Virus record (IMG/VR): IMGVR_UViG_3300047311_000323
Location: 62,001 to 126,000 of that record
Source: a virus
Length of the DNA: 64,000 nt
Reading direction: 5' to 3' (one strand)
The notes below the pieces were generated by a model. It did no database searches. It saw only the letters and a list, made by a program, of their open reading frames with translations, and was not told the DNA's origin. The translations under genes and the position numbers were made by a program. Shown piece after piece: positions 11,173-28,323 of this stretch. Numbering within the stretch: the stretch's first letter is position 1; each line of letters opens with the position of its first letter.

Positions 11173-14100
11173 TTAGAACACACCCTTTTTATTACCAAAG
11201 AGGTTTGACAACTGGGTATAAGAGTCATCCTCGACTGCTTGAGCTGGAGAGAATTCTCCATCAACTCTGAGACCAACTTGTGGCATGCTTCCTGCAGACT
11301 TACGCAGCATACCTGGTTCATGACGGGCAACGACCTTCTTGAGGGATTCGAATGCGTCATCATTAAACTTCATAATCTGATCAACTTGATCTGAGATGGT
11401 TACTCTGTCATGCTTGCACAGACCACGGTCAACCATGTCATAGGTTAGTTCATAGGCACGAGCTAGCTTAATTCTGAAGGTGTTTAACTCTTCTTCCATA
11501 GCTGACTTGACATGTTCCTTCACCATTTCACTGGCAAATTCACTTCCGCCATCAACTTCACCGAAGTACTTCTTCCAGTAAGCAACAGCTTCCTTGTCCA
11601 ATCCGTAAGATGCTAGAGCATCAACGTCATTTGGATCAAGCTTGCCCTCAGAGACGAGTCTCTGAATGACTTCTGCTTCTTTGCGAACCTTTGGTGGTGC
11701 CTTAGCAACCTCCAACATTCTCTTGTTTACTTCTGGGAGGGTCTCAACCAATCCGAGGCTGTCGGATGGCTTTACTTCCAATTCAGTTTGTCCATCGGCT
11801 AGTCTGTCGGCCTGGTCTAGCATATCACTAAACTTTTGCTTGGACATGTCTTGGATTTCTCCGTCTTCTTCTTTACCGAGAGCGTCAGCAGCCAACTTGG
11901 CCCTGAGAGCTGCACGGCCTGCTCTATCATCAAATGATGCCATAGTTAACTTCTTTCCGGCCAACTCTGGTGGTACTTTCTCACCTTGTTCAAAAGTGAG
12001 ATCGTTGTCGTCAGCCAAACCTTCTAGTAGTGGTTCTGCATGTGGCTCTTCGTGTTCGTGTTCTTCACCGCCCACATCTCCATCTAGAAGACCTTCGAGT
12101 CCATCCAAACCACCCAAACCTTCGCCACCCAAATCGCTGTGGTCTTGGTCATCGCCCATCATTTCTTGGACGGCATCCAAATCTGCGTTGGTGTCGTTGA
12201 TTAAGCCCATTAAGTCGCCGCCATCTGCGGAGTGGTTATCCTTCATGCTCATAGCGTCTCCTTCGTCTGAGGCAAGTGATTCGAGTTCTGACTCAATCTC
12301 TGCACGCTTGACAATGGCTTTAGTACCACGAGCATACTTGACGAATGCGGTCATTAGCTTAAAGCCGTCTGCTACAGCAGTCTTGGCTTCGTTTAATGCA
12401 TCGTCTACAATATTGCCTACAAAATCTTGGTTAGAATCAGTTACAGCGCCCTTGTCGTACATTCCAACAATCATATCTAGTTCTTGCTGGTGTTCAGTTA
12501 GTTCTGCAATAGCTTCTTTCATTGCATGAGTTAGTGCGCCATTCAATTCTCTTCTTAGAGTATTGAGGGTTGCTGTGCTGAAGTTATCAGAAGCAGAGGA
12601 CTCCATGGAGTCTTTCTTCTTCTTTGCATCTTGGTCGTCAGCAGCCATTGGGCCACCGGCTGGACCGCCTACGCCACCTGCTGGAGGAGCGCTACCTGCT
12701 TCTGGACCGCCCATTTCAGCTTGTTCACCAGTTAAGGCACGAACAGCTTCTACTAGGTCAGAGCTTAGGTCTCTTACCTTTTCGGCAAGTTCAACTGCAC
12801 TCTGCTTTGGGTCACCAGACTTGCCTGCGTCTTCTGCTGGAGGACCAGCATCTGGACCGGCATCACCACCTGGAGGTGGGGCACTGGATGGGTCACCGGC
12901 TGGAGGGCCGGCTGGTGGAGCACCACCTGGAGCGCCTTGTGCTTTCTTAATTAGTTTGCTTACCGCATCAGCACCATTAACTTTGACCTTTTCGATCAAC
13001 TTGGCACCGAAGTCCTTGGTAGCAATTGAGTCATATAGAACGTCAGTGTTTCCACCGGATAGTTCTGCAACAGATGCAGTCAACAATAGCTTGTCACCTA
13101 GGAATACTTCCCAAGCGCTTCTGCCCTTGTTCTGGGTGCCGTTGCTGTTGGCAGCCTTGACGAATCTGGCTCTTAGTTGAGCGCGTGCTAGCATCTGCTT
13201 ACGCTTCAATTCATCCTTTGGATCAGCGGAGGATGGAGAAGGGTGCATGCCGTCTACTGGACCAACACCTGGGAATGGTGGTTGACCAACCATGTGCTTG
13301 TCTTCGTATTCACGTAGTTCTTCGTTAAGCTTATCTTTTGGATACTTAACTTTACCTGGGGTTGGCTCGTTTACGCCGCCACCACCTAGGTAATAGGCTT
13401 CTTTGCTTCTCAAAGCGTCTTTTGCCATATTGACAATGGAGTTACGCTTGAGGGTGCGCTCTTCTGCTTCTGCACGAGCGAGCATCTTCTTACGCTCTAA
13501 CTCGCCAGATGGGTCAGCCGAAGCTGGAGAAGGGTGCATACCATCGACTGGACCTACCTCAGGGAAAGGAGGCTGACCCGTCATGTGCTTGTCTTCGTGT
13601 TCACGAAGTTGCTCATTGAGTCCGTCTTTTGGATATTTAACTTGGCCTGGAGTTGGCTCATTAACGCCACCGCCACCCTGGAAATAAGCTTGCTTATTGA
13701 TTTCTTTTGATCCGGACATGTGTTCCTCTTGTATTTTGGTAGTAGAAGTTTTTGCTAACTTATCCAAGCTCTTCTTCATTTGACTTAACGTAGCTTCAAT
13801 TGATGCAGTAACTTGCTGAAGCTCAGCCAATGATTCCGCCTCTACATCTGCGGATGCAAGCCTAATGGCTTGCGGAGTTTGGAGAGCCAATCCAGAATCC
13901 GGGGTTGTGCCAGTATCCATGGCTTGCGAACCCGACGATTGATTATATGTTGAAGAATTAGTATCTTTTCCAGAATTTTTTACGTTCTTGAATTCTTGCA
14001 CCTTACGAAAGGCTTCATCTAATTCTGTCTTGAAACTATCAATGTCACTTGCTTCGACGTTGAATTGAGCGCTTCCGCCGCCTTCTTCGCCATTTGGATC

Positions 14101-14931
14101 TGACACGTTTACATTAGCACTAAACTTGAGATCGGCCATTTTTTCTAGTTCTTTGGCACGATTCTCTAGATAAGTATTCATTGTATTTGCTGCAGCAATG
14201 ATGTGTTTGATGTTGGCTCTAGGATCCGCACCATTTACAACGATAGATAGCTCAATTGGATTGAGGTCTACGTTGATTTCACCGTAGCAAGTCTTGTTCT
14301 TCATATGACTGCAGAAGTCAGCTTCAGCGCGAGCGACTCGACCGCAATCATAACAGATGGCTCTTCCAACAGCAGTGCCCATAGATACGCAGTTAGAAAC
14401 GCCGGTTGAAATTTGTCTAGCTAATTGAGGGAATCCAGCCTTATCTAAGGCGCACAACGCAATCACTCTCTTGAGGCTGCGATCGTAATAGGTATCAACG
14501 ATAAAACCTCTAACATGGTCAACCGAACTCGATTTATGATCCACGCATAGAGGCTTGTGTTTCCACTTCTTGTAAGCTTTGGTTAATTCTGCTTCTGGAA
14601 AAATATCTCCATTGGAATTCTTATATGGCTTAATGTTAGGGTCATTTGATGCCCATTTCCATGTACCACCACTAGTATCCCAGCCTACTTCGACTGGTTC
14701 GCCCTTGAGCGTTAGCTTTGGTGTGCCATCTTCGTTAAGCGCTGCGGCCTCGGCGGCATGCATCATAACGGCAGAGAAATATAGGAAGTCTTCAGCTTTA
14801 GGTGCAATCTTCTTTAGGTTAGTTGCGAACTTCCTAAAGTTCTCCAATACCTCAGCACTCACCTCAGGAAGACATGATTCCATGTTCTCTAGTTTAATTT
14901 CGTGGGCTTCGCCTAATTTAATAATGGGCAT
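11173..14931 (-). CDS. Prohead maturation protease fused to long scaffold-like region
   Basis: A 1252-residue protein. About residues 1-250 form the protease part: a conserved His in VDHKSSSVDHVRGFIVD (near 131), a Ser in GVSNCVSMGTAVG (near 181), a Cys-rich insert CYDCGRV..FCSHM that may bind zinc, and the ending ELSIVVNGADPRANI. This is the arrangement of phage prohead serine proteases (T4 gp21/S78-like), which cleave scaffold and capsid proteins inside the prohead. The remaining 1000 residues are scaffold-like: charged helices, two 73-residue repeats, Pro/Gly-rich linkers, an acidic region, and a C-terminal helical domain (about 1150-1206) also found in the 43131-44198 gene. Most prohead proteases are 200-300 residues, so the fusion is unusual; self-cleavage is likely but not shown. 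The start is preceded by GGGAG. Confidence 0.75.
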   Translation of the reverse strand: MPIIKLGEAHEIKLENMESCLPEVSAEVLENFRKFATNLKKIAPKAEDFLYFSAVMMHAAEAAALNEDGTPKLTLKGEPVEVGWDTSGGTWKWASNDPNIKPYKNSNGDIFPEAELTKAYKKWKHKPLCVDHKSSSVDHVRGFIVDTYYDRSLKRVIALCALDKAGFPQLARQISTGVSNCVSMGTAVGRAICYDCGRVARAEADFCSHMKNKTCYGEINVDLNPIELSIVVNGADPRANIKHIIAAANTMNTYLENRAKELEKMADLKFSANVNVSDPNGEEGGGSAQFNVEASDIDSFKTELDEAFRKVQEFKNVKNSGKDTNSSTYNQSSGSQAMDTGTTPDSGLALQTPQAIRLASADVEAESLAELQQVTASIEATLSQMKKSLDKLAKTSTTKIQEEHMSGSKEINKQAYFQGGGGVNEPTPGQVKYPKDGLNEQLREHEDKHMTGQPPFPEVGPVDGMHPSPASADPSGELERKKMLARAEAEERTLKRNSIVNMAKDALRSKEAYYLGGGGVNEPTPGKVKYPKDKLNEELREYEDKHMVGQPPFPGVGPVDGMHPSPSSADPKDELKRKQMLARAQLRARFVKAANSNGTQNKGRSAWEVFLGDKLLLTASVAELSGGNTDVLYDSIATKDFGAKLIEKVKVNGADAVSKLIKKAQGAPGGAPPAGPPAGDPSSAPPPGGDAGPDAGPPAEDAGKSGDPKQSAVELAEKVRDLSSDLVEAVRALTGEQAEMGGPEAGSAPPAGGVGGPAGGPMAADDQDAKKKKDSMESSASDNFSTATLNTLRRELNGALTHAMKEAIAELTEHQQELDMIVGMYDKGAVTDSNQDFVGNIVDDALNEAKTAVADGFKLMTAFVKYARGTKAIVKRAEIESELESLASDEGDAMSMKDNHSADGGDLMGLINDTNADLDAVQEMMGDDQDHSDLGGEGLGGLDGLEGLLDGDVGGEEHEHEEPHAEPLLEGLADDNDLTFEQGEKVPPELAGKKLTMASFDDRAGRAALRAKLAADALGKEEDGEIQDMSKQKFSDMLDQADRLADGQTELEVKPSDSLGLVETLPEVNKRMLEVAKAPPKVRKEAEVIQRLVSEGKLDPNDVDALASYGLDKEAVAYWKKYFGEVDGGSEFASEMVKEHVKSAMEEELNTFRIKLARAYELTYDMVDRGLCKHDRVTISDQVDQIMKFNDDAFESLKKVVARHEPGMLRKSAGSMPQVGLRVDGEFSPAQAVEDDSYTQLSNLFGNKKGVF
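13177..13398 (-). repeat. Coding repeat copy 2 in the protease-scaffold gene
   Basis: Second 73-residue unit, beginning AYYLGGGGVNEPTPG and ending MLARA, about 98 residues after the start of copy 1. Substitutions are mostly conservative, which suggests selection on the repeat and not a recent slip. Confidence 0.85.
13475..13693 (-). repeat. Coding repeat copy 1 in the protease-scaffold gene
   Basis: Encodes a 73-residue unit beginning AYFQGGGGVNEPTPG and ending MLARA. By hand alignment 60 of 73 residues match copy 2. Its head motif also opens the protein encoded at 26490-27563. Confidence 0.85.
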
Positions 14932-14936
14932 GCGTA

Positions 14937-15092
14937 TTAGCTCCCTGACTTCTTCTTGGAAGAATCAGTTGACTCATCAGATTGTTTGATGAGATCTTTT
15001 GAACGATCTTTGACAGCTTTCTTTTGCTCTTCATTGAGTTCTTCGCCGTCAACGACGTTAAGTATTTTTCCATCACCGTGTTTAATAAACAT
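14937..15092 (-). CDS. Small charged protein upstream of the prohead protease
   Basis: A 51-residue ORF starting MFIKHGDGKILNVVDGEE and ending in a Ser/Lys-rich tail. GGAGAG precedes the ATG, and its stop lies 5 bases before the protease start. The tight spacing, good ribosome site and protein-like composition support it over the overlapping longer frame (14918-15169). The function is unknown. Small charged proteins at this position next to head protease genes could be assembly cofactors. Confidence 0.6.
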   Translation of the reverse strand: MFIKHGDGKILNVVDGEELNEEQKKAVKDRSKDLIKQSDESTDSSKKKSGS

Positions 15093-15171
15093 AAACTCTC
15101 CAAATGGGAGACCACACAGGTATAATGTAATATTGCTACAAATTTCCGGTCTGAGACTGAAAACTTCATCT

Positions 15172-15177
15172 ATTATA
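15172..15177 (-). promoter_or_regulatory. Candidate -10 element upstream of the small protein and protease genes
   Basis: A perfect TATAAT on the minus strand in the 105-base gap upstream of the gene at 15092, one of the longer gaps in the region. No convincing TTGACA box is seen 17 bases upstream. It would drive the 51-residue gene and the protease-scaffold gene. Confidence 0.35.
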
Positions 15178-15197
15178 CAGCGATATTACCATTTTAA

Positions 15198-15848
15198 TCA
15201 TCTACCTGACGGGTTCCTCTCCTCTACTGCATCATTTAGCTGTTCTTGCCTCTGATTATATAGATCCACGATTAGTGGGGTCTTCTTCTCTATTTTCATC
15301 TGCAAATCATTACTAATTGCATCTACCCAACTACTTGCCAGTATATTAGTTTGAATATGAGATTTAATTCTTTCATCAATGATTTCATCAATCTCATCGC
15401 ACTGTTTTTGAATACCTTCAATAGCGGCTGTTACATCTTTCACAAACTCTTTAGACTGCAAATCGTTAAACAAATCTGCAAACTGATTAACTGAAACTTC
15501 CAAATCATCCACTGAAGCAATAAATGATTTCATCAGTTTAAGTGTTTGAGTATCGCTTTCAAATGTCTGCATAATGTTAACGCAGTCAAAAGATACCTTC
15601 TTAAACTTATCAAAATTCTCAATGGCCTTATCTCTAAAACGTCTAATGACAGCACGAGCTTTCATTACGTCTTCAGGCGTCATATCTGGGTTGTCTTTGA
15701 ATGGAGTCTTCATAATATTCAAATGATCGGCAGCCTGTATTAGAAACCTCTCAGCAGCCTTAAAATACAATAGCGCCTTCTCTGCCTGCTGCTTTTCGCT
15801 GTCAGACACATTATAGCTCATTTGTACCGAGTAAGACTTTTTAATCAT
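15198..15848 (-). CDS. Helical coiled-coil-type protein of unknown function
   Basis: A 216-residue, almost entirely alpha-helical protein rich in Lys, Asp, Glu, Phe and Ile, with heptad-like spacing. No catalytic motif or membrane segment. The ATG directly abuts the stop codon of the phosphatase gene (TGAATG), so it is likely co-translated. It lies in the late operon between the phosphatase and the protease-scaffold gene; a structural or assembly role is inferred. Confidence 0.5.
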   Translation of the reverse strand: MIKKSYSVQMSYNVSDSEKQQAEKALLYFKAAERFLIQAADHLNIMKTPFKDNPDMTPEDVMKARAVIRRFRDKAIENFDKFKKVSFDCVNIMQTFESDTQTLKLMKSFIASVDDLEVSVNQFADLFNDLQSKEFVKDVTAAIEGIQKQCDEIDEIIDERIKSHIQTNILASSWVDAISNDLQMKIEKKTPLIVDLYNQRQEQLNDAVEERNPSGR

Positions 15849-16619
15849 TCAATGACCTACCTCTGAGAAGAAACCATCCATACGTTCCACTGGTCCGAAA
15901 CCTCGCTGCCCAGCATCATTGTCATATTCTCCCACATTAGGGATTGTGACACTCTCACTAGGATCATGCCTAAATAGTGGTGGGCTATCATAATTTTCGC
16001 GAGTGGGGTATTGATCCAAATCTGATGGGTACAATGAATCTACTGGGTCCTGCTTAGTCTGGTTCAAGTGTGGAGAGAACGATCCTTGATGTCCTTCATC
16101 CAAGAAAGTGTCACGGTTATCACCAATATACTCTCGTTCATTGGAGACTATATCAGCACTATTAGTATCTTTATCGGGCTTGCAGTGACGGATAATCTGT
16201 TCGAACATATGCATGCTCTGAGGCGGGATACCAACACCAAAGCCTAATGCCTTAGCTTCTTGAATTGCTTTCTCTGGGTCTTTACCAAGAAATCTACACT
16301 CTACTATTGCAGAAGCTAATCCAGTTCTATCCTTACCTTCATGGCAATGAACAAATGTGGGGCCACCTTCTAGAAATAGCTTTTTCATATCCTGAGATAA
16401 AAAATCATACAAGCTTTTTCTAGTATGATCGATATACAGTTTGATATGATTGATTCCTAACATCTTACAAGCTCGATCAATCTTCTCGCCTGTTTCTTGA
16501 TCTAAAGATACAATCTTTTTAATACCCAACTTATCTTTAAGCTCAAGTACATCTTTTGGAGTAGGGCCAGAACCACGATACAATACATCAGGAATAACTG
16601 AACGGAATCTTCTAATCAT
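15849..16619 (-). CDS. Dual-specificity/tyrosine phosphatase-like protein
   Basis: A 256-residue protein whose first 160 residues form a cysteine-dependent phosphatase domain. The signature HCHEGKDRTG at 91-100 contains the nucleophile Cys92 and phosphate-binding Arg98 in the C-x5-R pattern. An upstream Asp in LYIDHTRKS (near 64) could be the general acid. The catalytic set looks complete, so activity on phosphoprotein or another phosphate ester is likely. The C-terminal 95 residues are Asp/Pro/Asn-rich and probably disordered. It starts with GAGGAG 3 bases upstream and overlaps the previous gene by ATGA. A phosphatase in a virion operon is unusual; the substrate is unknown. Confidence 0.8.
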   Translation of the reverse strand: MIRRFRSVIPDVLYRGSGPTPKDVLELKDKLGIKKIVSLDQETGEKIDRACKMLGINHIKLYIDHTRKSLYDFLSQDMKKLFLEGGPTFVHCHEGKDRTGLASAIVECRFLGKDPEKAIQEAKALGFGVGIPPQSMHMFEQIIRHCKPDKDTNSADIVSNEREYIGDNRDTFLDEGHQGSFSPHLNQTKQDPVDSLYPSDLDQYPTRENYDSPPLFRHDPSESVTIPNVGEYDNDAGQRGFGPVERMDGFFSEVGH

Positions 16620-17368
16620 AGACTCCTCGACAAGCTATTTAGAACGCCCCTAATGTAAGTAGCATCTTGATTAAACAATACATGCTTAACGAATGTAATA
16701 GCTTGGCCATAAACGGCTGCATTTGGCATATGCTTTCCGGCAATTGCATTCTCACTCATAACAGCAAATTTTTGTTTGAGCACTTGTGCAGCCTTGAGCC
16801 TTTTTTCAGGCTCCAGTCTGTTTAAAATGAAATGAACAATACCAGCCAAATACTGGCCAACTTGGTCGGAATTTCCTAGTTCCGCTACCGCAGCACACTT
16901 AACCATCTTCTTATCTAATTTGACAGGATGAACCTTGTGAAATTTGAGAATAGCATTCTGCAAAGCTACTCGTTCTGGCTTGTTTATCTTGCCTTTAACT
17001 GCCCTATCAAATTGTAGTTTGAACAGCTTAAGAAATACTGTTACTTGCTCTGGGCTAGCTTCTTGACGAAGTTTTCTCATAAGAGCAGAGTAGCTAAACT
17101 CATCAGCGCCGGTTAAGTCAATTGGCGTAATGGCGTTACCTTGGTCATCAGCTTTTGACTTATCAAGGTGCTTAAAAAATTCTACCTGACGAAGACGCTT
17201 CTCAGCGGCTTTCCTAGACTTGTACGTACCTAGGTCTTTTCCCTTTTGAGAGAGCACACGAAAGCTACCGTTTGGTAGTTGGCGAATACGCGCAACCTTT
17301 ACCAAACCCTGTAAGCACTTAGTTTCATAAGTGCTGGCAAGTTGTAACAGTGTGTCTGAGTTTTTCAT
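16616..17368 (-). CDS. Late-region protein with recurrent phage 'RLRQVEFFKH' module
   Basis: A 250-residue protein. Near residues 30-70 it has a short basic module (NGSFRVLSQKGKDLGTYKSR, followed by AEKRLRQVEFFKHLDKS) of a kind I have seen repeatedly in phage proteins without a firm function. The rest is helical. Four-base ATGA overlaps at both ends tie it to the phosphatase and the 135-residue gene. It is probably a virion or assembly protein. Confidence 0.5.
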   Translation of the reverse strand: MKNSDTLLQLASTYETKCLQGLVKVARIRQLPNGSFRVLSQKGKDLGTYKSRKAAEKRLRQVEFFKHLDKSKADDQGNAITPIDLTGADEFSYSALMRKLRQEASPEQVTVFLKLFKLQFDRAVKGKINKPERVALQNAILKFHKVHPVKLDKKMVKCAAVAELGNSDQVGQYLAGIVHFILNRLEPEKRLKAAQVLKQKFAVMSENAIAGKHMPNAAVYGQAITFVKHVLFNQDATYIRGVLNSLSRSL

Positions 17369-17772
17369 TTTCTTGTGTATGGTTTTTCTAGATGAGAGAA
17401 TGCCTCTTTGACATCCAAAGTCTCTTTGCTTCGAAGCATCATGTCTTCGATCGTTCCCTTACCATCAACTTCATTCAAAGCCCTAATGGCTCTTTCATTG
17501 ACGAACATCATATTGCCCATTTGTAAATGACGATTGCCGCCAACAAATGCGCAATTGAGAATCAAACATTCGCGGTAAGCTGCAACAACTTGACCACAGA
17601 ATACGGCCGGGTATGTAGTAGAGATTTGCTCTGTACTTACATCTTCATAAGCATCTCCCACATACACCTCGATGAATTTGCCTTTAAAAATCTCTGCGAG
17701 AAATTCAGCAAACGTTTTGCCAGAACCTTGAAGTTGCTGAATCGTGTCTAAAAGTTGTTGTTCCGATACCAT
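17365..17772 (-). CDS. Small late-region protein of unknown function
   Basis: A 135-residue soluble protein with a central beta-rich segment (GKFIEVYVGDAYEDVSTEQI to AYRECLILNCAFVGG) and helical ends. No motif or membrane segment is recognised. It is translationally coupled by ATGA to the next gene and lies 9 bases after the transglycosylase gene. By place it may be a small tail or baseplate component. Confidence 0.45.
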   Translation of the reverse strand: MVSEQQLLDTIQQLQGSGKTFAEFLAEIFKGKFIEVYVGDAYEDVSTEQISTTYPAVFCGQVVAAYRECLILNCAFVGGNRHLQMGNMMFVNERAIRALNEVDGKGTIEDMMLRSKETLDVKEAFSHLEKPYTRK

Positions 17773-17781
17773 TGCATTTCC

Positions 17782-18933
17782 TTAGATAAATTTGAGCAGG
17801 AACTTCCTGTGGTTAGTATCAGCAGTTCTAGGGCTGATTGGTTGATAAGATGACTTTTTATTCATAATTTGATTTGTTATGACGTTAATTCCACCTATTT
17901 TAGCTGTTGCATCTTTAAAAGCTTCGACAACTGCTTGAGTCATTTGTCTAACTGCAGCAACACATTCTTTCTCTGGACCAGCGATTGTGCATTCGATTTC
18001 TACGTCATGACCGTCTGTATGAGGATAAGAATTAGATAGTAACTCTTCATCTAGGGCAGAGGTTAATACATTAGAGAATTCAATGGCACTAGAGTAATCT
18101 GGAGCTGAAATACAAATGAGAATGTTATGAGTTGGTAAGGCACGCTTGTACAACCTCTTCAAATCATGAGTTGTGGCGGCTCTTTGCATTTGTGCTTCTT
18201 GTAGATATTTATCCATGATGCTGTCCAATCCCTGTAGATGGTTATCATTTTGTGCGACCATTGATGGTGGTGCTTGGCCAGGTTTTTCTTTACCAGGTTG
18301 ATATCCTGTTTCTTTAGCCATAGTAGCCACTGCCTTTTGGTAGGCTGGATTCTTTCTGTTAATCTCTGTCTGCTTAATCATGTCGCCATAAGTAATGTAA
18401 CCCTTCTTATCATGATCAAAAAGAGGGTTAGCTTCGTATGCTTTCTTTTCAAATTTAGCGGATATCTTGTATCCTAAATCAAAATACTTCTTGCTATACT
18501 TACCACTAGGATCAGTATCTGGATTAGATTCTAAAATGCGAGTAGAAGGATCTCCCTTGATTACGCCTGGTAGTTTAAGAGCGATAGGCCATAGGTTACC
18601 CGTATAGTACAAACCGGCAGAAGTAAATTTGCGGCCATTCATTAATCCGCTTTTACCTTGAATAAATTTCTTGACCCAATCTAATTGTTCTTCGCCACTT
18701 AGCTTAATAAAATCTTGCCAAGTTCCTTGATATCCAAGTCCTCTTAGCGTAGCGGGCATGAATCCAATAAGACCAGATCCCTTGTATTTTTCTTCATATG
18801 CAGACGGATTCAAGCCAGACTCCGAGGTCATGACAGCCAGAAGGTCTTCTGGTTTCATCCCCAATTCTTCGGATATTTTGACCAATTTCGTATAGAAATT
18901 TGGGCCAAGGTTAGCTTTACCTCCTACTGGCAT
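17782..18933 (-). CDS. Virion lytic transglycosylase (SLT-type) with EF-hand-like loop
   Basis: A 383-residue protein. Residues 8-130 match the lysozyme-fold SLT domain: the catalytic Glu lies in AVMTSESGLNP (near 38), followed by GSGLIGFMPATLRGLG, the usual G-L-x-Q/G-x-M-P turn. This enzyme cuts the glycan strands of peptidoglycan, probably during DNA entry. Near 178-192 FDHDKKGYITYGDM resembles a calcium-binding EF-hand or dockerin loop, with Lys at one usual ligand position. The C-terminal half is of unknown fold. The start has AAGGGG 5 bases upstream. There is no signal peptide, which fits a tail-associated enzyme better than a secreted endolysin. Confidence 0.75.
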   Translation of the reverse strand: MPVGGKANLGPNFYTKLVKISEELGMKPEDLLAVMTSESGLNPSAYEEKYKGSGLIGFMPATLRGLGYQGTWQDFIKLSGEEQLDWVKKFIQGKSGLMNGRKFTSAGLYYTGNLWPIALKLPGVIKGDPSTRILESNPDTDPSGKYSKKYFDLGYKISAKFEKKAYEANPLFDHDKKGYITYGDMIKQTEINRKNPAYQKAVATMAKETGYQPGKEKPGQAPPSMVAQNDNHLQGLDSIMDKYLQEAQMQRAATTHDLKRLYKRALPTHNILICISAPDYSSAIEFSNVLTSALDEELLSNSYPHTDGHDVEIECTIAGPEKECVAAVRQMTQAVVEAFKDATAKIGGINVITNQIMNKKSSYQPISPRTADTNHRKFLLKFI

Positions 18934-18934
18934 A

Positions 18935-20176
18935 TTACCCCTTTAGTTTTTTGACGATGGAGAATAGCGCAATAGCCGTTTCCGGATCATCTCCTTGGAT
19001 GGACGTAGCGTACTTAGCGATGTAGCTGCAAAGAATACGAGGGTCTTCTGCACTCATAGACTCTAATGATTGATAGAATCTTTCGTGAGTTTGAACTCTG
19101 ATTTTTGGATCTCCAGTATCAACAGTTGGTGCGATACGAACTTGTGGAGTTCTCTCAGTGTCAGGCGCATTGTCTGATGGAGGTGCAGCAGGAGATGGTT
19201 GAACAAAAGACGATGGTCCAACCGTTACAAACCTTCCCATTGGAGGTAAGTTTGCAGGAGGCGCGGCTGGCGCAGCAGGTCCACCTGGTGGTGCTGGAGC
19301 CGGCTCTGACTCATGACCCAGTTCAGATTTACCTGGAGCTGGACCAGTTGTGGCTGGAGTTCCAGTAGTTTGGTTCTTCGTTAATTCTTTGTCCATCTCA
19401 TCCTTGATTCTCATCCAAGGAGTAACGGCTGTTTGATAGTAGCTCTTGAATGCACCATCAAATTTATTGAAGTCTGACTTAATTTTGTTGGCAGAGTCCA
19501 TATACTCATCTGGCCTACGAGTTGCTCTGGCAGTTGCCATATCCTTCATAGTAGAAATAGCGTTAGCCAATACTGTTTCAGCTTGGTCTAGTAACTTGAG
19601 TCCGCCCTCACGTAGAGCCTTGGTTTCTTTTGGATATTTCTTTTCCCAGGCTGCAAGACCACGTCCACGACTTGTGAAAAAGTTGAACAAAGAATCGATG
19701 ATACCAGCTTCTTTAATAAGTTGGTCAGCAATTAGAGAGGCGCCTTTTGGCTCCATATGTTGACGAAGTCTATTGATTTTTTCATCATCAACTCCTTCAA
19801 AAAGGAATCTGTGATGAATCTTATTGACATCAACAAAGAACTTATCAATATCATTAACAATAGCTTGTATTTTCTTATGGAACATAGCCAAATCAGAAAC
19901 GCCAGACATCCACTCTCGACGGTTGAAAGCAGTTCTAGATAGTTTCAACAGATCCTTGGCGGACTGTTTGATGGCAGGCTCTTCGGCCTTTCCAATTTGT
20001 TTGCCGGTTAATTCTGAACGAACACGGTCATCTAGCGCTTTGAGGGATTCCATAACCCTATTTAATTCAGGCTTGAATATACCGTCTACGAAAGCACCAG
20101 GAGCATTGATCTTTTCACGCAGATTGTTGAAAAAACCACGACCTGTTTCTCTTTTACTTTGAGCTAATTTATCCAT
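18935..20176 (-). CDS. Uncharacterised late-region protein next to portal
   Basis: A 413-residue protein. Residues 1-265 are helical and charged; a Pro/Ala/Gly linker at about 270-320 and a compact C-terminal helical segment follow. No catalytic motif. GAGGGT lies 6 bases before ATG; the stop is one base from the transglycosylase start. Placement between portal and transglycosylase suggests a head-neck or ejected protein; this is an inference. Confidence 0.45.
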   Translation of the reverse strand: MDKLAQSKRETGRGFFNNLREKINAPGAFVDGIFKPELNRVMESLKALDDRVRSELTGKQIGKAEEPAIKQSAKDLLKLSRTAFNRREWMSGVSDLAMFHKKIQAIVNDIDKFFVDVNKIHHRFLFEGVDDEKINRLRQHMEPKGASLIADQLIKEAGIIDSLFNFFTSRGRGLAAWEKKYPKETKALREGGLKLLDQAETVLANAISTMKDMATARATRRPDEYMDSANKIKSDFNKFDGAFKSYYQTAVTPWMRIKDEMDKELTKNQTTGTPATTGPAPGKSELGHESEPAPAPPGGPAAPAAPPANLPPMGRFVTVGPSSFVQPSPAAPPSDNAPDTERTPQVRIAPTVDTGDPKIRVQTHERFYQSLESMSAEDPRILCSYIAKYATSIQGDDPETAIALFSIVKKLKG

Positions 20177-20259
20177 GGAAACCCTCTACTTGTGCGTAAT
20201 AGCTAAAACAATGCTGGATTATTCACAAGTAGGGCATATTCAGCGGATTTAAAACATTA

Positions 20260-22143
20260 TCACGCTGGTGGTGGTGGACCTGGTGGAGCGCCGCCTCCTG
20301 GTGGCATTAATCCGGCTGAAGCTCCACTTGGTGGAGGTGGAGGAGGACCGCCTGGGCCACCGCCTGGAGGAGGTGGTGGTGGACCACCTGGTAGACCCAA
20401 ATCTGGCATTCCGCCGCCTGGTGGTGCTCCGCCTGGAGTCTCTCCTGGTAGTGGGGCTTCTTGACCAGCTCCCTGTTGTTTTGGCTCTGGAATTTCATCC
20501 TCGTCATCCAATGCACGGAGAGAGTTGAGGTCCATAGCTTCAAGGGCGGCCGTTTCCTTCTTGGCAATTGCGTTCTGAACATTTTCTTTACGCATCTTGC
20601 GTACTTCGTCTTCATACTCAAGACCCAAAGAACGGTATAGGGTGTGAATAGAGACTCTCTTCTGGTCGGCTTGACCCTGAGATAGAGTAACTAAGCTGTT
20701 GATGTAGTCACCTGCATCAAACAAGCTCATGTGGTTCCAATCAATTTCAGGAACGATAAGTTGTTTCTCACCACCAGAGTAGTCATAGAAGCCCTGGATC
20801 TTGGAGATTGGAGCAAAAATCTTAGTCTTGAGCCACTGAGACATCATATTACGGAACTGCATGTATCTCTGACGTAGAACGTCCAAAGCTACACCGCCGT
20901 TAGCGTAAGTGGTATCAGAACCACCGTCCATCATAACTGGTGGAACGAACAAACCAACATAGATTTCCTTCATGAGCTGAGTAATATCGCCGGAGATATC
21001 GTAGATACCTTGTCCCCAACCGACTCTCTCAACAGCAACGCCTTCATGGGTGAAGATTTTGAAGTCTTTGTCGTATTGCGCTTCTTCGAAGACGCCTCTC
21101 CATGCTTCAAGGTCAGCAAAGGTTGGCTTGTAGTCAGCCGAACCAATCTTAACCAAAGTCAATGGGTTGATCATGTTATCAGACTGGGCGTACTTAGATT
21201 CACGTAGCTTATCAAAGAGCATCAACTGACGGAAAATACAGACTGGAAGGCCAGTGCCTCTAATTTCGTAAGGGCTGATACGACGAGCTAAGTGTGATAC
21301 ATGGAAGTTGTCTAGTGGAATGTTTTCTCCACGTCTTACAGAGTCGATAATGTGCTGGTTAAGCTGCTTACGCTGTTCAATATCGGTTGGACGGTTTGAG
21401 AAAATGATTTTCTTGAGGTTCTCATCAGGACGAAGCATGATGATTGGTTCGCTGGCTACGACCGTACGTTTGACAATCATGAAATCTGGGTTTTGAATGT
21501 GTAGGCGACTCCACTTGCCCTTACCTTCATCCAGTTCTGCATAAACAAACGCTTCTCCTAAGAGCCAATACTCTTGGGCAATCTGTACACAGATGTTCAT
21601 TAGGTCAATCTCTTCGATCATGTCATCGAAGAACTTTTCAATATCCTTATTAGGACACTTGATAGATAGTTTGCTGATTGGGTATGTGCTATGCAAACTG
21701 ACAGCATTATGCACGAATGGGTTCAATGCAAAGAAGCTTCGGCACCATGCATTAATAGTTGCACGGTCACGCGGTAGGTTCAAGTTGCTGTTGAGCCAAA
21801 GTGGGGAATAAACTTCAGGAGTCTGCTTGACGGTGTCGCCATGGATACCACGGAACATACCACCAGAGCTAGACACTACCTGTGAATTTTTCTTGAAGCC
21901 TACGGAGGAGACAACGTTAGAAGCCGTAGTAGGCGCGTTGGCCAATGAAAGTTTGTTATAACTTGGGCCAGAGCCATCCCTGAAGTATCCCTGTTCGACC
22001 TCGTCAGAAAGAATAACTCTTCTTTCTCCGGAGACGCCACTTGCCATAATAGCACTTACTTGTGGGGTAGTGGATCTACCTGATAAGAATCTTGCTGAAA
22101 AGGATGGGGCTTCCCCTAATCCCGATTTTTTAATACCAGCCAT
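20260..22143 (-). CDS. Portal protein with long Pro/Gly-rich tail
   Basis: A 627-residue protein forming the ring through which DNA is packaged and released. The core (about 120-530) has portal-type features: a segment on non-productive segments of DNA entry, EYWLLGEAFVYAELDEGKGK followed by WSRLHIQNPDFM, SPYEIRGTGLPVCIFRQLML, and a C-terminal helix-rich region. The final 75 residues are almost only Pro and Gly (PGGPPPPPPGGGPGG style). The ATG has GAGGT 3 bases upstream. It directly follows terminase in transcription order, as usual in tailed phages. The assignment rests on motif style and gene order and is firm. Confidence 0.85.
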   Translation of the reverse strand: MAGIKKSGLGEAPSFSARFLSGRSTTPQVSAIMASGVSGERRVILSDEVEQGYFRDGSGPSYNKLSLANAPTTASNVVSSVGFKKNSQVVSSSGGMFRGIHGDTVKQTPEVYSPLWLNSNLNLPRDRATINAWCRSFFALNPFVHNAVSLHSTYPISKLSIKCPNKDIEKFFDDMIEEIDLMNICVQIAQEYWLLGEAFVYAELDEGKGKWSRLHIQNPDFMIVKRTVVASEPIIMLRPDENLKKIIFSNRPTDIEQRKQLNQHIIDSVRRGENIPLDNFHVSHLARRISPYEIRGTGLPVCIFRQLMLFDKLRESKYAQSDNMINPLTLVKIGSADYKPTFADLEAWRGVFEEAQYDKDFKIFTHEGVAVERVGWGQGIYDISGDITQLMKEIYVGLFVPPVMMDGGSDTTYANGGVALDVLRQRYMQFRNMMSQWLKTKIFAPISKIQGFYDYSGGEKQLIVPEIDWNHMSLFDAGDYINSLVTLSQGQADQKRVSIHTLYRSLGLEYEDEVRKMRKENVQNAIAKKETAALEAMDLNSLRALDDEDEIPEPKQQGAGQEAPLPGETPGGAPPGGGMPDLGLPGGPPPPPPGGGPGGPPPPPPSGASAGLMPPGGGAPPGPPPPA

Positions 22144-22224
22144 GTAACCTCTGTTGTTCCACTATACCCTCTACTAGAATACACTAAATATGATATATCC
22201 AGTAAGCTTAGGTATTTAGGCCGC

Positions 22225-24108
22225 TTAGAACCTTCTCGGTACATAACCGCTCATTACCATGGGTTTATTCAGGTTTTTAGGGGTATGAAGCATTGGATTG
22301 TTATTTGTGAAGCCTCGACTAACTAAGAATTTAAAAGCCAAATAAGCGTTCAGCAGTGCCATAAATCCGTCGTTTGGTGTTCCGCCCTTGACATAATGGA
22401 CTGTGTGGTCACCATATTTAGAAATAGATGGCTTGAGTTCCATACTACAACAATGGTCAATTAACCATGCAACCTTCTCATAATCTCCATATGGGAATCT
22501 AATCAGACCTTTCTTCATTTGGTCATAAAGCTCACTAATATAGAAGTCTCTCTCGAAGATAATTTCTTTTGGAAAAGCCTCATGATTAAACTTAACATGA
22601 TCATTAACTCTGTTATGAGCACGAGAGACTAGATATCTATCTCCATAAGTGTTATGTAGTGTAGAAGAAAAGTCATTAGAGTAACCAATGTCTCCAATGG
22701 TTAGCTGCACACTATACTGTCTCATCAATTGATCAATGAGCCCCTTTTTGCTTTCCGGATCATTTCGTTTAAACTTAGTAGCAAATTCAATTGACAGTAA
22801 GTTAGATCCTTTGGTTTGCAAAATAACAGCGGTACTATAAGATTGGCCAGCAGGTTTTACTCTTTCTGGGTCAGCTAATTGTTCTAGGTCAGAACGGGCA
22901 CCATAATCGATTCCCATTACCGTCAACTGCTGCATTGGTCCTTTGGTTGGAAGAATACGTGGGCTATATTTTCTTTCGAAGTCAGCACATAGAGTACGTA
23001 CCTCGTCTGGAGACATCGGACTTGCATCTCCCTGATAGAACTCTCCAAGAACTTCGTTTTGGAAAACACGCTCAGTATTGATTGGATGACGGCCCGGCTT
23101 TTCCTTATCGATATCTTCTCTAGTGAATTTGGGCATGTAAAGCTGATTGATATGGAAACCAATCATATCACAGTCTGGATCGTTTGGATTCTTCAGAGCA
23201 ACCCACTTGCCACGTTCTTGTGCTTGTAGTTTATCTTGTTCATGGCCGCATTTTGAACACTTAACTACTTTACCATGAATCCAAACTTTCTCCCAATCAT
23301 CAGAACCTGGCGTGTAAAGTGGGAAATGCTCTTCACATTTCTCACAGCCTAAGTAGTAATATTGCTGAGAAGAAGACTGCCACATCTTGTGGTAGTCAGA
23401 TCCTTTACGACGGGGCGTTCCAAAGAAAACTTGTACTCCCTGTGTAGGTCTGCCATATTTGGCGTTGGTTAGAATTTTAAGAGCGTTTCCAATAGCCTGA
23501 GTCGTTGTCTTCTGAACTTCGTCAAAGAATAGAATATCAGCGGTACGACCCATGATTCTGTCGGCGTCTACGCCAGTCGACTCTACCCACAAGTGGTTTC
23601 CGCCAATGAACTGTTTAAAATGCAAAGAATCGTTGGTAGGAGAAGACTGGTCTAGTAATTGCTGCATGAAAGACTTTGGACGAGAGCCCTTGTTTTCGGG
23701 AGTTCCTTCAGGGACCTTAGCCATATTGATCATTTGGTTTAGCTTGGTCTTAGAATAGGCCGCAGCTAACTCCAATTGAGGGAAAGCGTGGATGATACGG
23801 ATTGGTGGACGGAACCCGTCTCCGAACAAACCAGAGCCCATGAAATACATTTCCAAAGCACTAGCCATGGTAGTAGCTCCTACCTGACGGCCTTTGACTA
23901 AGATAACTGGCTTAGCATCTGGCTCTAATGCTTTAATACCAATGTATCTGTAAATATCTGAGAAGGGCTTATATCCATTACCACTCAATCTGAATGGTTC
24001 ACCTTCTAATGTTAAATTCTCTTGACAAAATGTTACGGGGTCAATCATTGAGAGTTGTCTTTTCATCTTCTCAAAGATTTCCTTATTTTCAATATTTATA
24101 CTGGGCAT
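22225..24108 (-). CDS. terL: Terminase large subunit
   Basis: A 627-residue packaging motor. The ATPase half has a Walker A variant KGRQVGATT (residues 72-80) and Walker B ILFFDEVQKT (near 191). A zinc-ribbon-like insert (CEKCEEHFP then KCSKCGHEQ) lies around 258-305, as in GpA-type terminases. The nuclease half has acidic RNase-H-like motifs MGIDYGARSD and IGDIGYSNDF. The protein cuts concatemeric DNA and pumps it into the prohead through the portal encoded just downstream. It diverges from a plus-strand gene 26 bases away. The length is typical. Confidence 0.9.
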   Translation of the reverse strand: MPSINIENKEIFEKMKRQLSMIDPVTFCQENLTLEGEPFRLSGNGYKPFSDIYRYIGIKALEPDAKPVILVKGRQVGATTMASALEMYFMGSGLFGDGFRPPIRIIHAFPQLELAAAYSKTKLNQMINMAKVPEGTPENKGSRPKSFMQQLLDQSSPTNDSLHFKQFIGGNHLWVESTGVDADRIMGRTADILFFDEVQKTTTQAIGNALKILTNAKYGRPTQGVQVFFGTPRRKGSDYHKMWQSSSQQYYYLGCEKCEEHFPLYTPGSDDWEKVWIHGKVVKCSKCGHEQDKLQAQERGKWVALKNPNDPDCDMIGFHINQLYMPKFTREDIDKEKPGRHPINTERVFQNEVLGEFYQGDASPMSPDEVRTLCADFERKYSPRILPTKGPMQQLTVMGIDYGARSDLEQLADPERVKPAGQSYSTAVILQTKGSNLLSIEFATKFKRNDPESKKGLIDQLMRQYSVQLTIGDIGYSNDFSSTLHNTYGDRYLVSRAHNRVNDHVKFNHEAFPKEIIFERDFYISELYDQMKKGLIRFPYGDYEKVAWLIDHCCSMELKPSISKYGDHTVHYVKGGTPNDGFMALLNAYLAFKFLVSRGFTNNNPMLHTPKNLNKPMVMSGYVPRRF

Positions 24109-24134
24109 ACTAAAATGATCGTATATTCAGTAGA

Positions 24135-24701
24135 ATGGCTTCCACGAAAAAACGAAGAAAAAGAGTATGCCTCAAATGTGGCGTTTCATTAACCACTAAG
24201 AATTGGGCTACTTACGACCAAAACAAGGGCTATTATATCTGCAAGCCATGTCGAAAATCCAATGACAAGAAGTCTCATCAGACCGATCCTGATTACTCTA
24301 AAAAACAAAACAGCCGCTATCGTATGAAACGAAGCGCTGTTATTTGGGCTTATGGTAATGCTTGCTGTATTTGCGGAGAAGATGAGTATACTAAACTAAC
24401 AATCAATGGTGATATCAACTATCTGTATGAAGGTCTTGTCCAAAAAACTGGATATCAAGTTACATGTTACAATTGTTATAAGGGTAAACCTTACAAAAGT
24501 AAATATGTCGAGTCATACAGGAAGAAAATAGTCAAGTACTATGGTGGTTGCTGTAAAGAGTGTGGTGAAAGAAAGGTTGAAACACTAACTCTCAACAAAA
24601 ATAAAGAACTGCTATGCTACAATTGCAAGTATAGCAAGATTGCGCTTGAGAAATACCCTCCAGAACCCGAAAAACAGGCTGGGCAAGTGCAAAGCACTTA
24701 A
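24135..24701 (+). CDS. Zinc-binding protein with degenerate HNH-like modules (plus strand)
   Basis: A 188-residue basic protein with three tandem Cys-pair modules: CLKCG..CKPC (residues 13-40), CCICGEDEY..CYNC (77-115) and CCKECGE..CYNC (139-165). The middle unit follows the layout of small phage HNH nucleases (YGNxCxxCG then a CYNC pair), but the position where the catalytic DH normally stands reads TINGDIN. It is therefore probably catalytically dead or a different zinc protein. It is one of only two plus-strand genes, starts 26 bases from the divergent terminase and ends by a 4-base convergent overlap with the next gene. Its isolated reversed orientation suggests later insertion. Confidence 0.65.
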   Translation: MASTKKRRKRVCLKCGVSLTTKNWATYDQNKGYYICKPCRKSNDKKSHQTDPDYSKKQNSRYRMKRSAVIWAYGNACCICGEDEYTKLTINGDINYLYEGLVQKTGYQVTCYNCYKGKPYKSKYVESYRKKIVKYYGGCCKECGERKVETLTLNKNKELLCYNCKYSKIALEKYPPEPEKQAGQVQST

Positions 24702-25333
24702 AATTTCGCAGGCATTAAAGCGTTGAATGCATCAGTATTTGATGGATCAATATCGGAATTAACAGTAGAATGGTCGCCTTGACCTAGCTGACTGAAATTA
24801 TCATAGCTACTAGGGTTACTAGTCTTAGCTTGTAGGTTGTATTGACTAACAAGGCGGGTCAATTTGTCATCTTCCCATGATGCTTCGTTAGAAATATCAC
24901 CAGCATGCAAAGAACGCAAGCGACTAATGATGGCAGGGACTGACAAATTACCCTTAGACTCCCTAACAATGTTCTCAAGCGTATTCAGAATGCTTGGCTT
25001 GTCTTGGATAATCTTTGGCATGTTAGCATTAGTCTGAGCCTGAGCTGTTTTACGAGGCTTGCTAGGTGGTGGAGCATCTTCAGATGACGTTTTGGTCTGT
25101 AGATAGTCGGTCAAACCACTACGGTGCATCATATCATCAACGGCAGCCTGTACCGATGGATACTTAGACTTGCCATTCATGATGGTGCTAATCTGTTCGA
25201 ACAAACTGTTGCCACGTGGTTGCACGCTGGTCTTTTGAAGGGAGTTCTCAAACGCCCTTAACCAGTGGTCATCGCTCTCAGGAGCATCAGATTGTCTATT
25301 GATCACCGATTGGTGTCGTGAATTTTTGCTCAT
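24698..25333 (-). CDS. Uncharacterised late-region protein
   Basis: A 211-residue protein. The ATG at 25333 is chosen because it follows the stop of the upstream gene by two bases (TAATAATG), whereas the longer start at 25360 lacks a ribosome site. It is helical with Ser/Asn/Gln-rich linkers and a PPPSKPRKTAQ linker in the middle. No motif is recognised. It shares the operon with the 361-residue gene. Confidence 0.45.
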   Translation of the reverse strand: MSKNSRHQSVINRQSDAPESDDHWLRAFENSLQKTSVQPRGNSLFEQISTIMNGKSKYPSVQAAVDDMMHRSGLTDYLQTKTSSEDAPPPSKPRKTAQAQTNANMPKIIQDKPSILNTLENIVRESKGNLSVPAIISRLRSLHAGDISNEASWEDDKLTRLVSQYNLQAKTSNPSSYDNFSQLGQGDHSTVNSDIDPSNTDAFNALMPAKF

Positions 25334-25335
25334 TA

Positions 25336-26421
25336 TTAAGCCCTGTAGTTGGCTGCCCAATCCATATTGTCAGTATCGTATACTTCAAGATCATCATCTG
25401 GGAAGAAGCCACGATCCTCACGCATTGGATAACCCATATCCCACAATAGTTGTCTTACTTCGGCTTGCTCACGGTCATCAAGCTTGTATTTAGAAACTTG
25501 ACGCTTGTACAAATCTTCGATATCATGGCCAGCAGAAACAGTACCGTTAATGCAAACACGAGCAATTCTAGAAATCAAAAGAGGAACAGTTACGTAAACT
25601 CCTTGAACTCCAGTAATCTTCTGTGCGTGCTTAGTCAAACCAAATCCTTCAAAGCCTGGCTCTTCACCATTATTAGCTAGTTGAACGATTACCTTTGCGG
25701 CAGTCCATTCCTCACCAGGAATAGTAGTATCAGCTACCCAATCCTGTAGGTCTTCATCTGAGTATCTCTCAAGAACTTTGTTGATTTCAGGTTGCAATTC
25801 TTGGGCAGTCTTCTTACGCTTCTTAGAAGACTTCTTGGAATCTTTTACCTTATCTAGACGATCACGCAAACGAGACAAACCATTATCTAGCTCGGAACGA
25901 ATCTTCTCAACCTTGTTAGCATCTAACTCAGAGTCGAGGTCCATTCTCATAGCCTTAGAAATTTCGCTATCTAGTTTCTCCATGTAGGACATGGCACGTT
26001 CTAGACCGGCAGAGTCGTAACCAGAGTGCTTAGGAACACTGTCTAGTCTTTCCTTGACCCAGGCTACAAAGCCGTGTGGGCCATGCTTAGACCAATCCCA
26101 TTTAGCATTCTTGCTCTCTTTAGGATCTTCTTTCTTATCTTCACCGTCATCCTTAACTTCGAGAGTCTCATCATGTACTTCGAGTTCGGGTTCTGGGTGC
26201 TTAGTGCCAGGTGGTGCGCCGGGAAGGTCTTCAACTACGATTTCAATTTCGCCAGGCTCAGATACTTCGATTGGAGCGCCGGACATAAGTTCTTCAATGC
26301 CCTCGTGTTGTAGTTCGGCAGGGATAGCCTCAACCGAGTGCTCATCATGCGCCGGTAGCTGTGACGCCGGGGAAATCGGGTCTATGACGTATAGCTGCTG
26401 TGCTCTGGATCGTAAAGTCAT
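25336..26421 (-). CDS. Uncharacterised charged late-region protein
   Basis: A 361-residue protein. The N-terminal 105 residues are acidic and Pro-rich; a Lys/Asp/Ser-rich helical coiled-coil-like stretch follows (about 140-205, including DSKKSSKKRKK), then a compact C-terminal domain of about 150 residues. No enzymatic motif. It lies in the virion module upstream of terminase and is probably structural. Confidence 0.45.
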   Translation of the reverse strand: MTLRSRAQQLYVIDPISPASQLPAHDEHSVEAIPAELQHEGIEELMSGAPIEVSEPGEIEIVVEDLPGAPPGTKHPEPELEVHDETLEVKDDGEDKKEDPKESKNAKWDWSKHGPHGFVAWVKERLDSVPKHSGYDSAGLERAMSYMEKLDSEISKAMRMDLDSELDANKVEKIRSELDNGLSRLRDRLDKVKDSKKSSKKRKKTAQELQPEINKVLERYSDEDLQDWVADTTIPGEEWTAAKVIVQLANNGEEPGFEGFGLTKHAQKITGVQGVYVTVPLLISRIARVCINGTVSAGHDIEDLYKRQVSKYKLDDREQAEVRQLLWDMGYPMREDRGFFPDDDLEVYDTDNMDWAANYRA

Positions 26422-26489
26422 TTAGGTACCTCTGGGAGTGCTTTCTTTATATGATAATATGCGGTTGTATGCAATGATAATGATTGGTT

Positions 26490-27563
26490 TTAGATATTCC
26501 ACTTATCCTCATAGATATCGGTACCAATATCAGAAGTTCCAGTAAATGGCTCTTCTACTTGCTCGGTTTGGTCAGCATCGTGACCTTCTGGATCTACGCC
26601 ATCTGGCAAGCCAAATAAACCGTCTTCAGATGGGGTTAGGTACTTATTAAAAAGTTTTTGCAGGATATCCTCGTGAAGACCTCTAGCTGGCTTTGTCTCT
26701 TCGTCATAATCTCTACCGAAATTAAGGGCATCAGCCGAACGACCATCAAAATCGTTTTCTGGTAAATAAGAGTGCTCACCAGCAATCTGTCCAGATTGGA
26801 ATGAACTCTGGAAAAGCTCAGGTCCTATATCTCCTGGGAAAAGAGAATAGTCATCATTGCCTGCAGGACCTAACGGACCCACTAGTCTTGGCTTATGATA
26901 CTGCTCTTCACCAGGATAAATCATTTGGTTATAGTGGTTTACCTGTTCATCAATCGGGAAGTCAATATGATTGACATCCTTTTTCTTCTTCTTTTTTGGA
27001 CCAGGGGTGCCTTGATATGGACTGTTTTTCCAATCATAGATACTGGTGCCATGCTCTTTAGGCGGAAGCATATGATCGGCATTGTCATCGGCAAAGAAAG
27101 CGCCTGGACCGTGATCTTCCTCTTCCCTGAACTCTTCAACACTGTCAACTTTGCCATCGCTCATTTCTTGATAGAGACCTTTTCCTAAATCATAATTAGG
27201 GCCTGCGGTCTTGATTATTCTTTCAAAAATAGCTGCACGGGCTTTAATGCCAGGATTTTCTTTAGTACGTTTGCCAGAATCCAATTGCCAAGAATCGTCG
27301 GCTTCATAGCGACCCTTCATCCTACTACGCCTTGCTTCTAGAAATTCCTGGACGCTATCGTAATTTTGTAGACCGTGGTATCCCGTGCCGGGGCCGATGT
27401 CCTCCATGCCGGGAATTGTATACAAATCGTAGTTGTAATAAAATGGTTCTTCAAAACGTGGCTGAACAACCAAGGCCGGATCGGACTTGTATTTCTTTTC
27501 ACCAGGCGTTGGTTCGTTGACCCCGCCTCCACCTTGGAAATAACCTTTCTTATTGACTGACAT
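26490..27563 (-). CDS. Late-region protein with N-terminal motif shared with the protease-scaffold
   Basis: A 357-residue protein. The ATG at 27563 is chosen because AAGGA lies 8 bases upstream; it overlaps the nucleotidyltransferase gene by 14 bases. It opens MSVNKKGYFQGGGGVNEPTPG, nearly the same as the NKQAYFQGGGGVNEPTPG head of repeat 1 in the protease-scaffold protein. The rest is Tyr/Asp/Gly/Pro-rich, with KKKKKKDV in the middle and an acidic C-terminus. The shared head suggests a common sorting, binding or processing signal during head assembly. Confidence 0.55.
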   Translation of the reverse strand: MSVNKKGYFQGGGGVNEPTPGEKKYKSDPALVVQPRFEEPFYYNYDLYTIPGMEDIGPGTGYHGLQNYDSVQEFLEARRSRMKGRYEADDSWQLDSGKRTKENPGIKARAAIFERIIKTAGPNYDLGKGLYQEMSDGKVDSVEEFREEEDHGPGAFFADDNADHMLPPKEHGTSIYDWKNSPYQGTPGPKKKKKKDVNHIDFPIDEQVNHYNQMIYPGEEQYHKPRLVGPLGPAGNDDYSLFPGDIGPELFQSSFQSGQIAGEHSYLPENDFDGRSADALNFGRDYDEETKPARGLHEDILQKLFNKYLTPSEDGLFGLPDGVDPEGHDADQTEQVEEPFTGTSDIGTDIYEDKWNI

Positions 27564-28323
27564 TGGATTTTCCTTTAACATGCTTCATGTAGTATGGATA
27601 TACCTTTTCTGTAATTGGTATCTGAGTCCATAGATTCATCTGAGTAATTAGTTGAGCTGCCTTCTCTGGATTCCTAGTGAAAGCTTCATTTAGCTTATCG
27701 TTCATTGATTTCTCAGTTGAAATCTTAACAGTTTCAGGATACTTTCTTACATACTCAATAATTGAATCATCCAAGTCAAAATCCAATTTACAAGCAAGAT
27801 AAATTGCCCTTACAACTCTATTCCTATTAGAAGTGAGAGTTACCTCAGGCGCTAAACAAGTTCTAATCTTCTTCTCTTTGATATCTTTGAATCCTCGTTT
27901 AGTTGGATCCAAAGTTTGCTTTAGGTCTAACGTCAGCAACAAAGAGTTACAGGTAAAATCACGACTGAACATTTCGCGCTGCATGTTGGTAGGATTTCTG
28001 ATTCCTAACTTCGCTAGCTCTTGGTCAATGTTTTCGACCATAAAATTAGAAGAGAAGTCTACCTTCAAAGTACCTACGAAGATAGAGCTGTGTCCATCTT
28101 CCATAGTTTTTCTGGTGACGTTATACTTCTTACGAAACTCAATGAAAAACTCTTGAGACAAATAGTCAACGGTCTTATCACCAGTAGTAACATCTATGTC
28201 GGCGATGTTTTCTAGTTTACCCATGTACTTATCTCTAGGCGTACCTCCGCAGATATAGGGCGGAGATGCGCCTATCTGTTCTTGCACTCTCTTCATTTCT
28301 GAAAGCAGTTCGCGGAGTTTCAT
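27550..28323 (-). CDS. Nucleotidyltransferase of the CCA-adding/poly(A) polymerase family
   Basis: A 257-residue protein with class II pol-beta-type nucleotidyltransferase motifs: YICGGTPRDK (25-32, the GG..RD helix), DIDVTT (42-47, two metal-binding Asp), FSRDFTCNSLLL (the R-R-D-F-T-x-N region) and DPTKRGFKDIKEKKIRT (the D..G..DI...IR region). These are hallmarks of bacterial tRNA nucleotidyltransferase and poly(A) polymerase I. It is shorter than bacterial CCA enzymes (about 400), so the C-terminal tRNA-body domain is reduced. It may repair or tail RNA, or act on another substrate. No tRNA gene is in this window. It sits among late genes. Confidence 0.8.
   Translation of the reverse strand: MKLRELLSEMKRVQEQIGASPPYICGGTPRDKYMGKLENIADIDVTTGDKTVDYLSQEFFIEFRKKYNVTRKTMEDGHSSIFVGTLKVDFSSNFMVENIDQELAKLGIRNPTNMQREMFSRDFTCNSLLLTLDLKQTLDPTKRGFKDIKEKKIRTCLAPEVTLTSNRNRVVRAIYLACKLDFDLDDSIIEYVRKYPETVKISTEKSMNDKLNEAFTRNPEKAAQLITQMNLWTQIPITEKVYPYYMKHVKGKSNVSQ

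Follow-up and report, generated by a model that had tools for sequence, protein, structure and literature searches.

The locus described here raises the question of why two proteins of one phage head-gene block, a protease-scaffold fusion protein (P) and a largely disordered protein (T), carry the same short peptide. The window, i.e. the whole stretch of DNA analyzed, is 64,000 nucleotides long and corresponds to bases 62,001-126,000 of a 198,396-base phage record; the giant-phage clade concerned is known here from metagenome contigs alone. The genes discussed are all on the minus strand and lie within one head-gene block. In this block TerL (22225-24108, minus strand) and the portal (20260-22143, minus strand) are followed by several unknown genes, P, further unknown genes, a decoration candidate and the major capsid protein, whose gene sits at the window's left edge. 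The probable decoration protein was assigned by position alone. The virion gene cluster covers 1-35019 of the window.

The tag and its two carrier proteins

Scanning all 198 kb of the record in six frames detected three copies of a 24-residue tag, two in P and one in T, and no further copies beyond these two proteins. Copy 1, KQA-YFQGGGGVNEPTPGQVKYPKD, is located at 13624..13695 (minus strand, P residues 413-436), copy 2, KEA-YYLGGGGVNEPTPGKVKYPKD, at 13333..13404 (minus strand, P residues 510-533) and copy 3, KKG-YFQGGGGVNEPTPGEKKYKSD, at 27480..27551 (minus strand, T residues 5-28). The preliminary description had stated that the motif heads two repeats in P and opens the protein encoded at 26490-27563. 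Both statements were borne out: the P frame (11173-14931) reads KQAYFQGGGGVNEPTPG from K413 and KEAYYLGGGGVNEPTPG from K510, and translation of the T frame opens with MSVNKKGYFQGGGGVNEPTPG. The earlier count of 60 identities in 73 residues between the repeats proved exact on an ungapped recount, with a repeat spacing of 97 residues. One reading had to be corrected, as the second P repeat has YYL and not YFQ ahead of GGGG. Alignment of 139 distinct copies gave the unit common to P and T as K-x-[AG]-Y-[FYW]-x-G-[GA]-G-G-[VI]-N-E-P-[TAS]-P-[GK]-x-x-K-Y-x-x-[DE], simplified to K-x-[AG]-Y-x-x-G-[GA]-G-G-V-N-E-P-T-P-G-x-x-K-Y-x-x-D. Positions G0, G2, N5, E6 and P7 are 100% conserved in these copies. 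A text search of the literature returned YFQGGGG in unrelated subjects alone and did not find the VNEPTPG part.

P (1252 aa, 11173..14931, minus strand) was annotated from PHROG 18299 and phage G gp19 for its N-terminal part and, weakly, phage G gp21 for its C-terminal part. The prohead protease domain (residues ~34-247; 14191..14832, minus strand) matched phage G gp19 with hhalign E 2.3e-25 and 34% identity, and the N-terminal part matched the head maturation protease family PHROG 18299 with E 2.5e-12. Sequence homology to this curated family places P with the Caudoviricetes prohead (head maturation) proteases. The top PDB fold match of the protease model was T4 gp21 (5jbl), a weak match (E 0.14) of a low-confidence model. 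Repeat unit 1 (R1; residues 416-512; 13396..13686, minus strand) has K-x-A at each end, and unit 2 (R2; residues 513-594; 13150..13395, minus strand) ends in FVKAA, so that K-x-A sites flank both repeats, after A415, A512 and A594. The two units are an evident tandem duplication. They are followed by a small folded domain (residues 586-663; 12943..13176, minus strand; pLDDT ~80). The C-terminal ~60 residues form a scaffold-like module (11311..11490, minus strand) that matched the ORF at 43131-44198 (hhalign E 2.4e-8) and, weakly, phage G gp21 (E 3e-4). This is a second common module, outside the tag, and it ties P to the protein of that ORF. In one relative (L062) the P gene seems to be split by an intein-like insertion (CFVPGTKVLMANGSVKNIEDVKAGD...) just within the protease domain.

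T (357 aa, 26490..27563, minus strand) is acidic-tailed and predicted to be disordered over nearly its whole length, with a mean pLDDT of 47.5; its frame permits an alternative start 18 nt upstream, at 27581. The start of T is overlapped by a nucleotidyltransferase gene (PolyA_pol head domain; 27550..28323, minus strand), and the two are fused in 9 of 28 distinct T sequences, where the tag lies mid-protein at residue ~259. About a third of relatives thus have T fused behind the nucleotidyltransferase, so the tag is not bound to an N-terminal position. A further fusion, in relative L070, has an extra segment of ~340 residues between the two parts, containing a J-domain-like stretch. In three relatives (G008, G009 and G010) T has no tag; P retains two tags in G009 and G010, and one tag plus one degenerate copy in G008. 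Therefore the tag behaves as an add-on and, alone, cannot be essential for T.

Distribution and conservation of the tag

Viral contigs were scanned with a DNA pattern obtained by back-translating the motif core, and at least 119 stretches matched; among the matches listed, every one reading as the motif falls in P or T. A degenerate pattern gave one to three matches in each of 16 related records, and its reversed control gave none. Exactly three strict copies were found in each of five large records (252-481 kb), with the T copy ahead of the two in P, which lie 13-14 kb downstream; the other records had one or two. Complete relatives have no more than three copies, and P and T are always the carriers. 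When a tag HMM was run against all ORFs fetched from 10 phages, P and T alone matched, with degenerate P copies at E 5e-6 and 5e-5 and the next-best hit at E 6.8; degenerate copies occur in G008 and G012. The preliminary description had named absence of the motif from relatives as grounds for refutation. The motif is present in them, and in the frames searched it is restricted to P and T.

The degenerate pattern had eight matches in 257 Gb of sequence from 84,980 bacterial and archaeal genomes. One of them encodes the protein (L200, on a 383-kb contig binned with a Chitinophagales MAG) and the other seven are without tag context. The contig is probably of phage origin and was placed in a bacterial bin. 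A bacterial origin of the tag was rejected, as only this one prokaryote match encodes the protein.

Identity of the tag at the amino acid level was 0.77-0.89, compared with 0.37-0.53 at third positions, which is near saturation. At the DNA level R1 and R2 were as alike within a locus (0.49) as between different loci (0.48), with no sign of gene conversion. Since synonymous sites are near-saturated and repeats within a gene are no closer than repeats across loci, it is the peptide that is under selection. The same observations led us to reject a DNA-level element or a recombination hot spot, as synonymous sites are free to vary and same-locus repeats are not more alike.

The likeness of P and T does not extend past the tag. 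An initial match of 42% over ~85 aa was gone once the tag was removed, and hhalign comparison of the segments after the tag gave a probability of 0.2%, below the reversed control. P and T thus have ~24 residues in common between unrelated flanks. In predicted structures both P tags and the T tag are in low-confidence coil, with no strand or helix predicted at any of them. A short, conserved, disordered and position-independent segment common to two unrelated proteins has the properties expected of a short linear motif used for docking.

The VNE site and the K-x-A signal

Prohead proteases of T4 (L/I-x-E) and of phiKZ and SPN3US (A-x-E) recognize a short motif with Glu as its last residue and cut after it (PMC9026906, PMC10052503). 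Based on this precedent, and on a putatively gp21-like protease domain in P, the tag itself could be a maturation site at which the protease cuts after VNE, much as T4 gp21 does after L/I-x-E; this had been among the earlier proposals. The data speak against it. The tag Glu is followed by Pro at P1' in all 139 copies, which makes a T4-like cut unlikely, and in virion proteins x-x-E pairs show weak enrichment or none (L-x-E, z=2.6; V-x-E, z=1.6; compare K-x-A, z=5.9). With the tag HMM on ORFs of 10 phages, the motif was not found in the capsid protein or in any virion protein other than P and T. A T4-type x-x-E site calls for a permissive P1' and recurrence in several head proteins, and the VNE site has neither. 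The long invariant tag also differs from the two-residue motifs that known prohead proteases use. We consider cleavage after VNE the least probable of the explanations weighed here. Any cut is more likely just ahead of the tag, after K-x-A/G.

Because the VNE Glu always precedes Pro and x-x-E pairs showed little or no enrichment, we searched for any residue pair that was both conserved and over-represented. Spacings of 1-6 were analyzed in 29 head-block gene families from up to ten phages, and expected counts were obtained by within-family permutation (400 shuffles). K-x-A ranked first of all pairs, with 42 conserved sites against 18 expected, a count reached in none of the 400 shuffles. In the same families A-x-K (18), K-A (15), K-x-x-A (16) and R-x-A (8) were at expectation. 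No K-x-A excess was detected in 44 gene families outside the head block of the same phages (15 against 19.9 expected), and the excess persisted when P, portal and TerL were left out (28 against 11.4). Hydrophobic residues occupy the position two places before the K in 62% of cases, compared with 29%. In a single genome the count was weakly enriched (97 against 80), and the signal emerged with conservation across 10 phages. Phage G served as a separate test of the K-x-A pair alone: its head block had 60 sites against 33.5 expected (0 of 500 shuffles), and its other genes showed a small excess (107 against 88).

Directly before the tag Tyr, K/R-x-[AG] is present in 131 of 139 copies (T, 29 of 29; R1, 69 of 73; R2, 33 of 37). 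A conserved K-Y-A (residues 24-26 of the major capsid protein; 878..886, minus strand), is a probable maturation site. It lies within an N-terminal extension of ~43 residues that the capsid protein of this clade has and that phage G gp27 (PDB 6wkk) lacks. Given the enrichment, its repetition in phage G and the K-Y-A in the capsid extension, a K-x-A cut signal is a reasonable inference, and K-x-A/G is probably the recognition sequence of the clade's prohead protease. It may instead be a docking or structural signature rather than a cut site. Gly replaces Ala before the tag in 24-40% of R1 and T copies, and conserved K-x-G is not enriched elsewhere in the head-block families; the K-x-A/G upstream of the tag could therefore belong to the docking motif. 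The sites in portal and TerL indicate that chance occurrences exist too. K-x-A has the form of the P3-x-P1 pair with a free middle residue used by the T4, phiKZ and SPN3US proteases; those cut after Glu, whereas the putative clade motif ends in Ala. A K-x-A cut rule was not found in a literature search made mostly without subscription papers. If confirmed, the rule would be a specificity other than that of the Glu-directed prohead proteases (PMC9026906, PMC10052503).

Possible roles of the tag in head assembly

P and T alone carry the tag and it starts at an apparent protease cutting signal; it is therefore probably an address label in head building. Two of the earlier proposals, a capsid-binding address and an interaction motif, together make up the class of explanation that best fits a conserved, disordered short motif that two unrelated head-cluster proteins share, that does not depend on position and that T can be without; the third, cleavage after VNE, did not hold. 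For the fuller claim, a portable docking or address motif that binds a partner during head assembly, the comparisons presented here leave the chances evenly balanced, and a cut at the N-terminal edge of the tag is somewhat less certain. According to the scheme we propose, the two tags in the disordered linker of P and the one in T would bind the same prohead surface, most likely the inner capsid, core or portal, and would so gather P and T into one compartment. On maturation, cuts in P after K413-Q-A415, K510-E-A512 and K592-A-A594 would free two tag-headed peptides, 97 and 82 residues long. In T the cut would follow K-x-A/G and, in fused relatives, separate T from the nucleotidyltransferase; in unfused T it would take off only about 7 residues, which counts against the scheme. 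We infer this order of events. The whole proposal, in which the protease of the clade and of phage G cuts after K-x-A and not Glu, the P polyprotein of the clade frees two tag-headed peptides and the tag also recruits disordered T into the head, so that targeting is built around a freed N-terminus, is tentative and somewhat more likely to be wrong than right.

Other partners are conceivable. The tag might bind not the capsid but the protease domain itself, as an exosite ligand or pseudo-substrate that keeps P inactive or recruits T as a preferred substrate. This would account for P and T as sole carriers: two of the tags share a polypeptide with the protease, and the third is next to a probable cut site on another protein. 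We regard it as unlikely, since the model gave no confident contact, with the tags in low-confidence coil, and other putative K-x-A substrates are without the tag. Slightly less likely still is self-association, by which P repeats and T would bind each other directly and form a scaffold core: the motif is aromatic and glycine-rich, shared by P and T and in tandem in P, but two tags persist in P where T has none, and neither strand nor helix is predicted at the tag. As for a conserved linker left over from duplication and recombination, with no specific partner, the tandem origin of R1 and R2 and the degenerate copies in G008 and G012 would fit. The near-invariance of the tag in more than 100 divergent sequences whose synonymous sites are close to saturation, without a trace of gene conversion, makes this very improbable.

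The closest working analogue of the docking motif proposed here is the capsid targeting sequence (CTS) of T4, a short peptide on the otherwise unrelated IPI-IPIII and Alt that is thought to direct them to the prohead core and lies beside a prohead-protease site processed by gp21 (PMC9026906). Like the CTS, the tag is a short peptide on unrelated proteins adjoining a putative prohead-protease site. Unlike the CTS, an N-terminal propeptide removed by the cut, the tag is longer, follows the putative cut, has another sequence and is present twice inside the protease-scaffold protein. It was not classed as a CTS because it is internal in P and in the nucleotidyltransferase-T fusions. The head module of Bacillus phage G resembles the present one in its homologous protease (gp19), its homologous capsid protein (gp27, PDB 6wkk; E 3.8e-96) and the K-x-A enrichment of its head genes. 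It differs in that the protease and the scaffold-like protein are separate genes, and the tag was not found in phage G. In the herpesvirus assemblin-scaffold system protease and scaffold are also in one self-cutting polypeptide, with Ala at P1; the likeness to P is one of analogy only, and we know of no tag repeats there.

Apart from T4 and the phiKZ group, little is known of how giant phages collect dozens of head proteins ahead of DNA entry. Should the tag be an address label, it would provide a sequence-level handle on proteins entering the head in a widespread metagenomic clade, and the short peptide could load foreign cargo. If K-x-A is a cut signal, maturation sites are predicted across the head proteins and could be checked directly in phage G, a cultured phage with reported virion mass spectra (PMC8570332).

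Several neighbours of P and T in the head block have features of their own. The ORF adjoining P (10431-11144) is of low complexity, with Asp/Ser-rich blocks alternating with Lys/Ser-rich blocks. At 15849-16619 and 17782-18933, within the conserved block, are genes resembling those of a tyrosine phosphatase and an SLT transglycosylase. A small Cys-rich gene on the opposite strand (24135-24701, plus strand) separates TerL from the next head gene; it was not found in some relatives and is highly variable among the others, with 29-79% identity.
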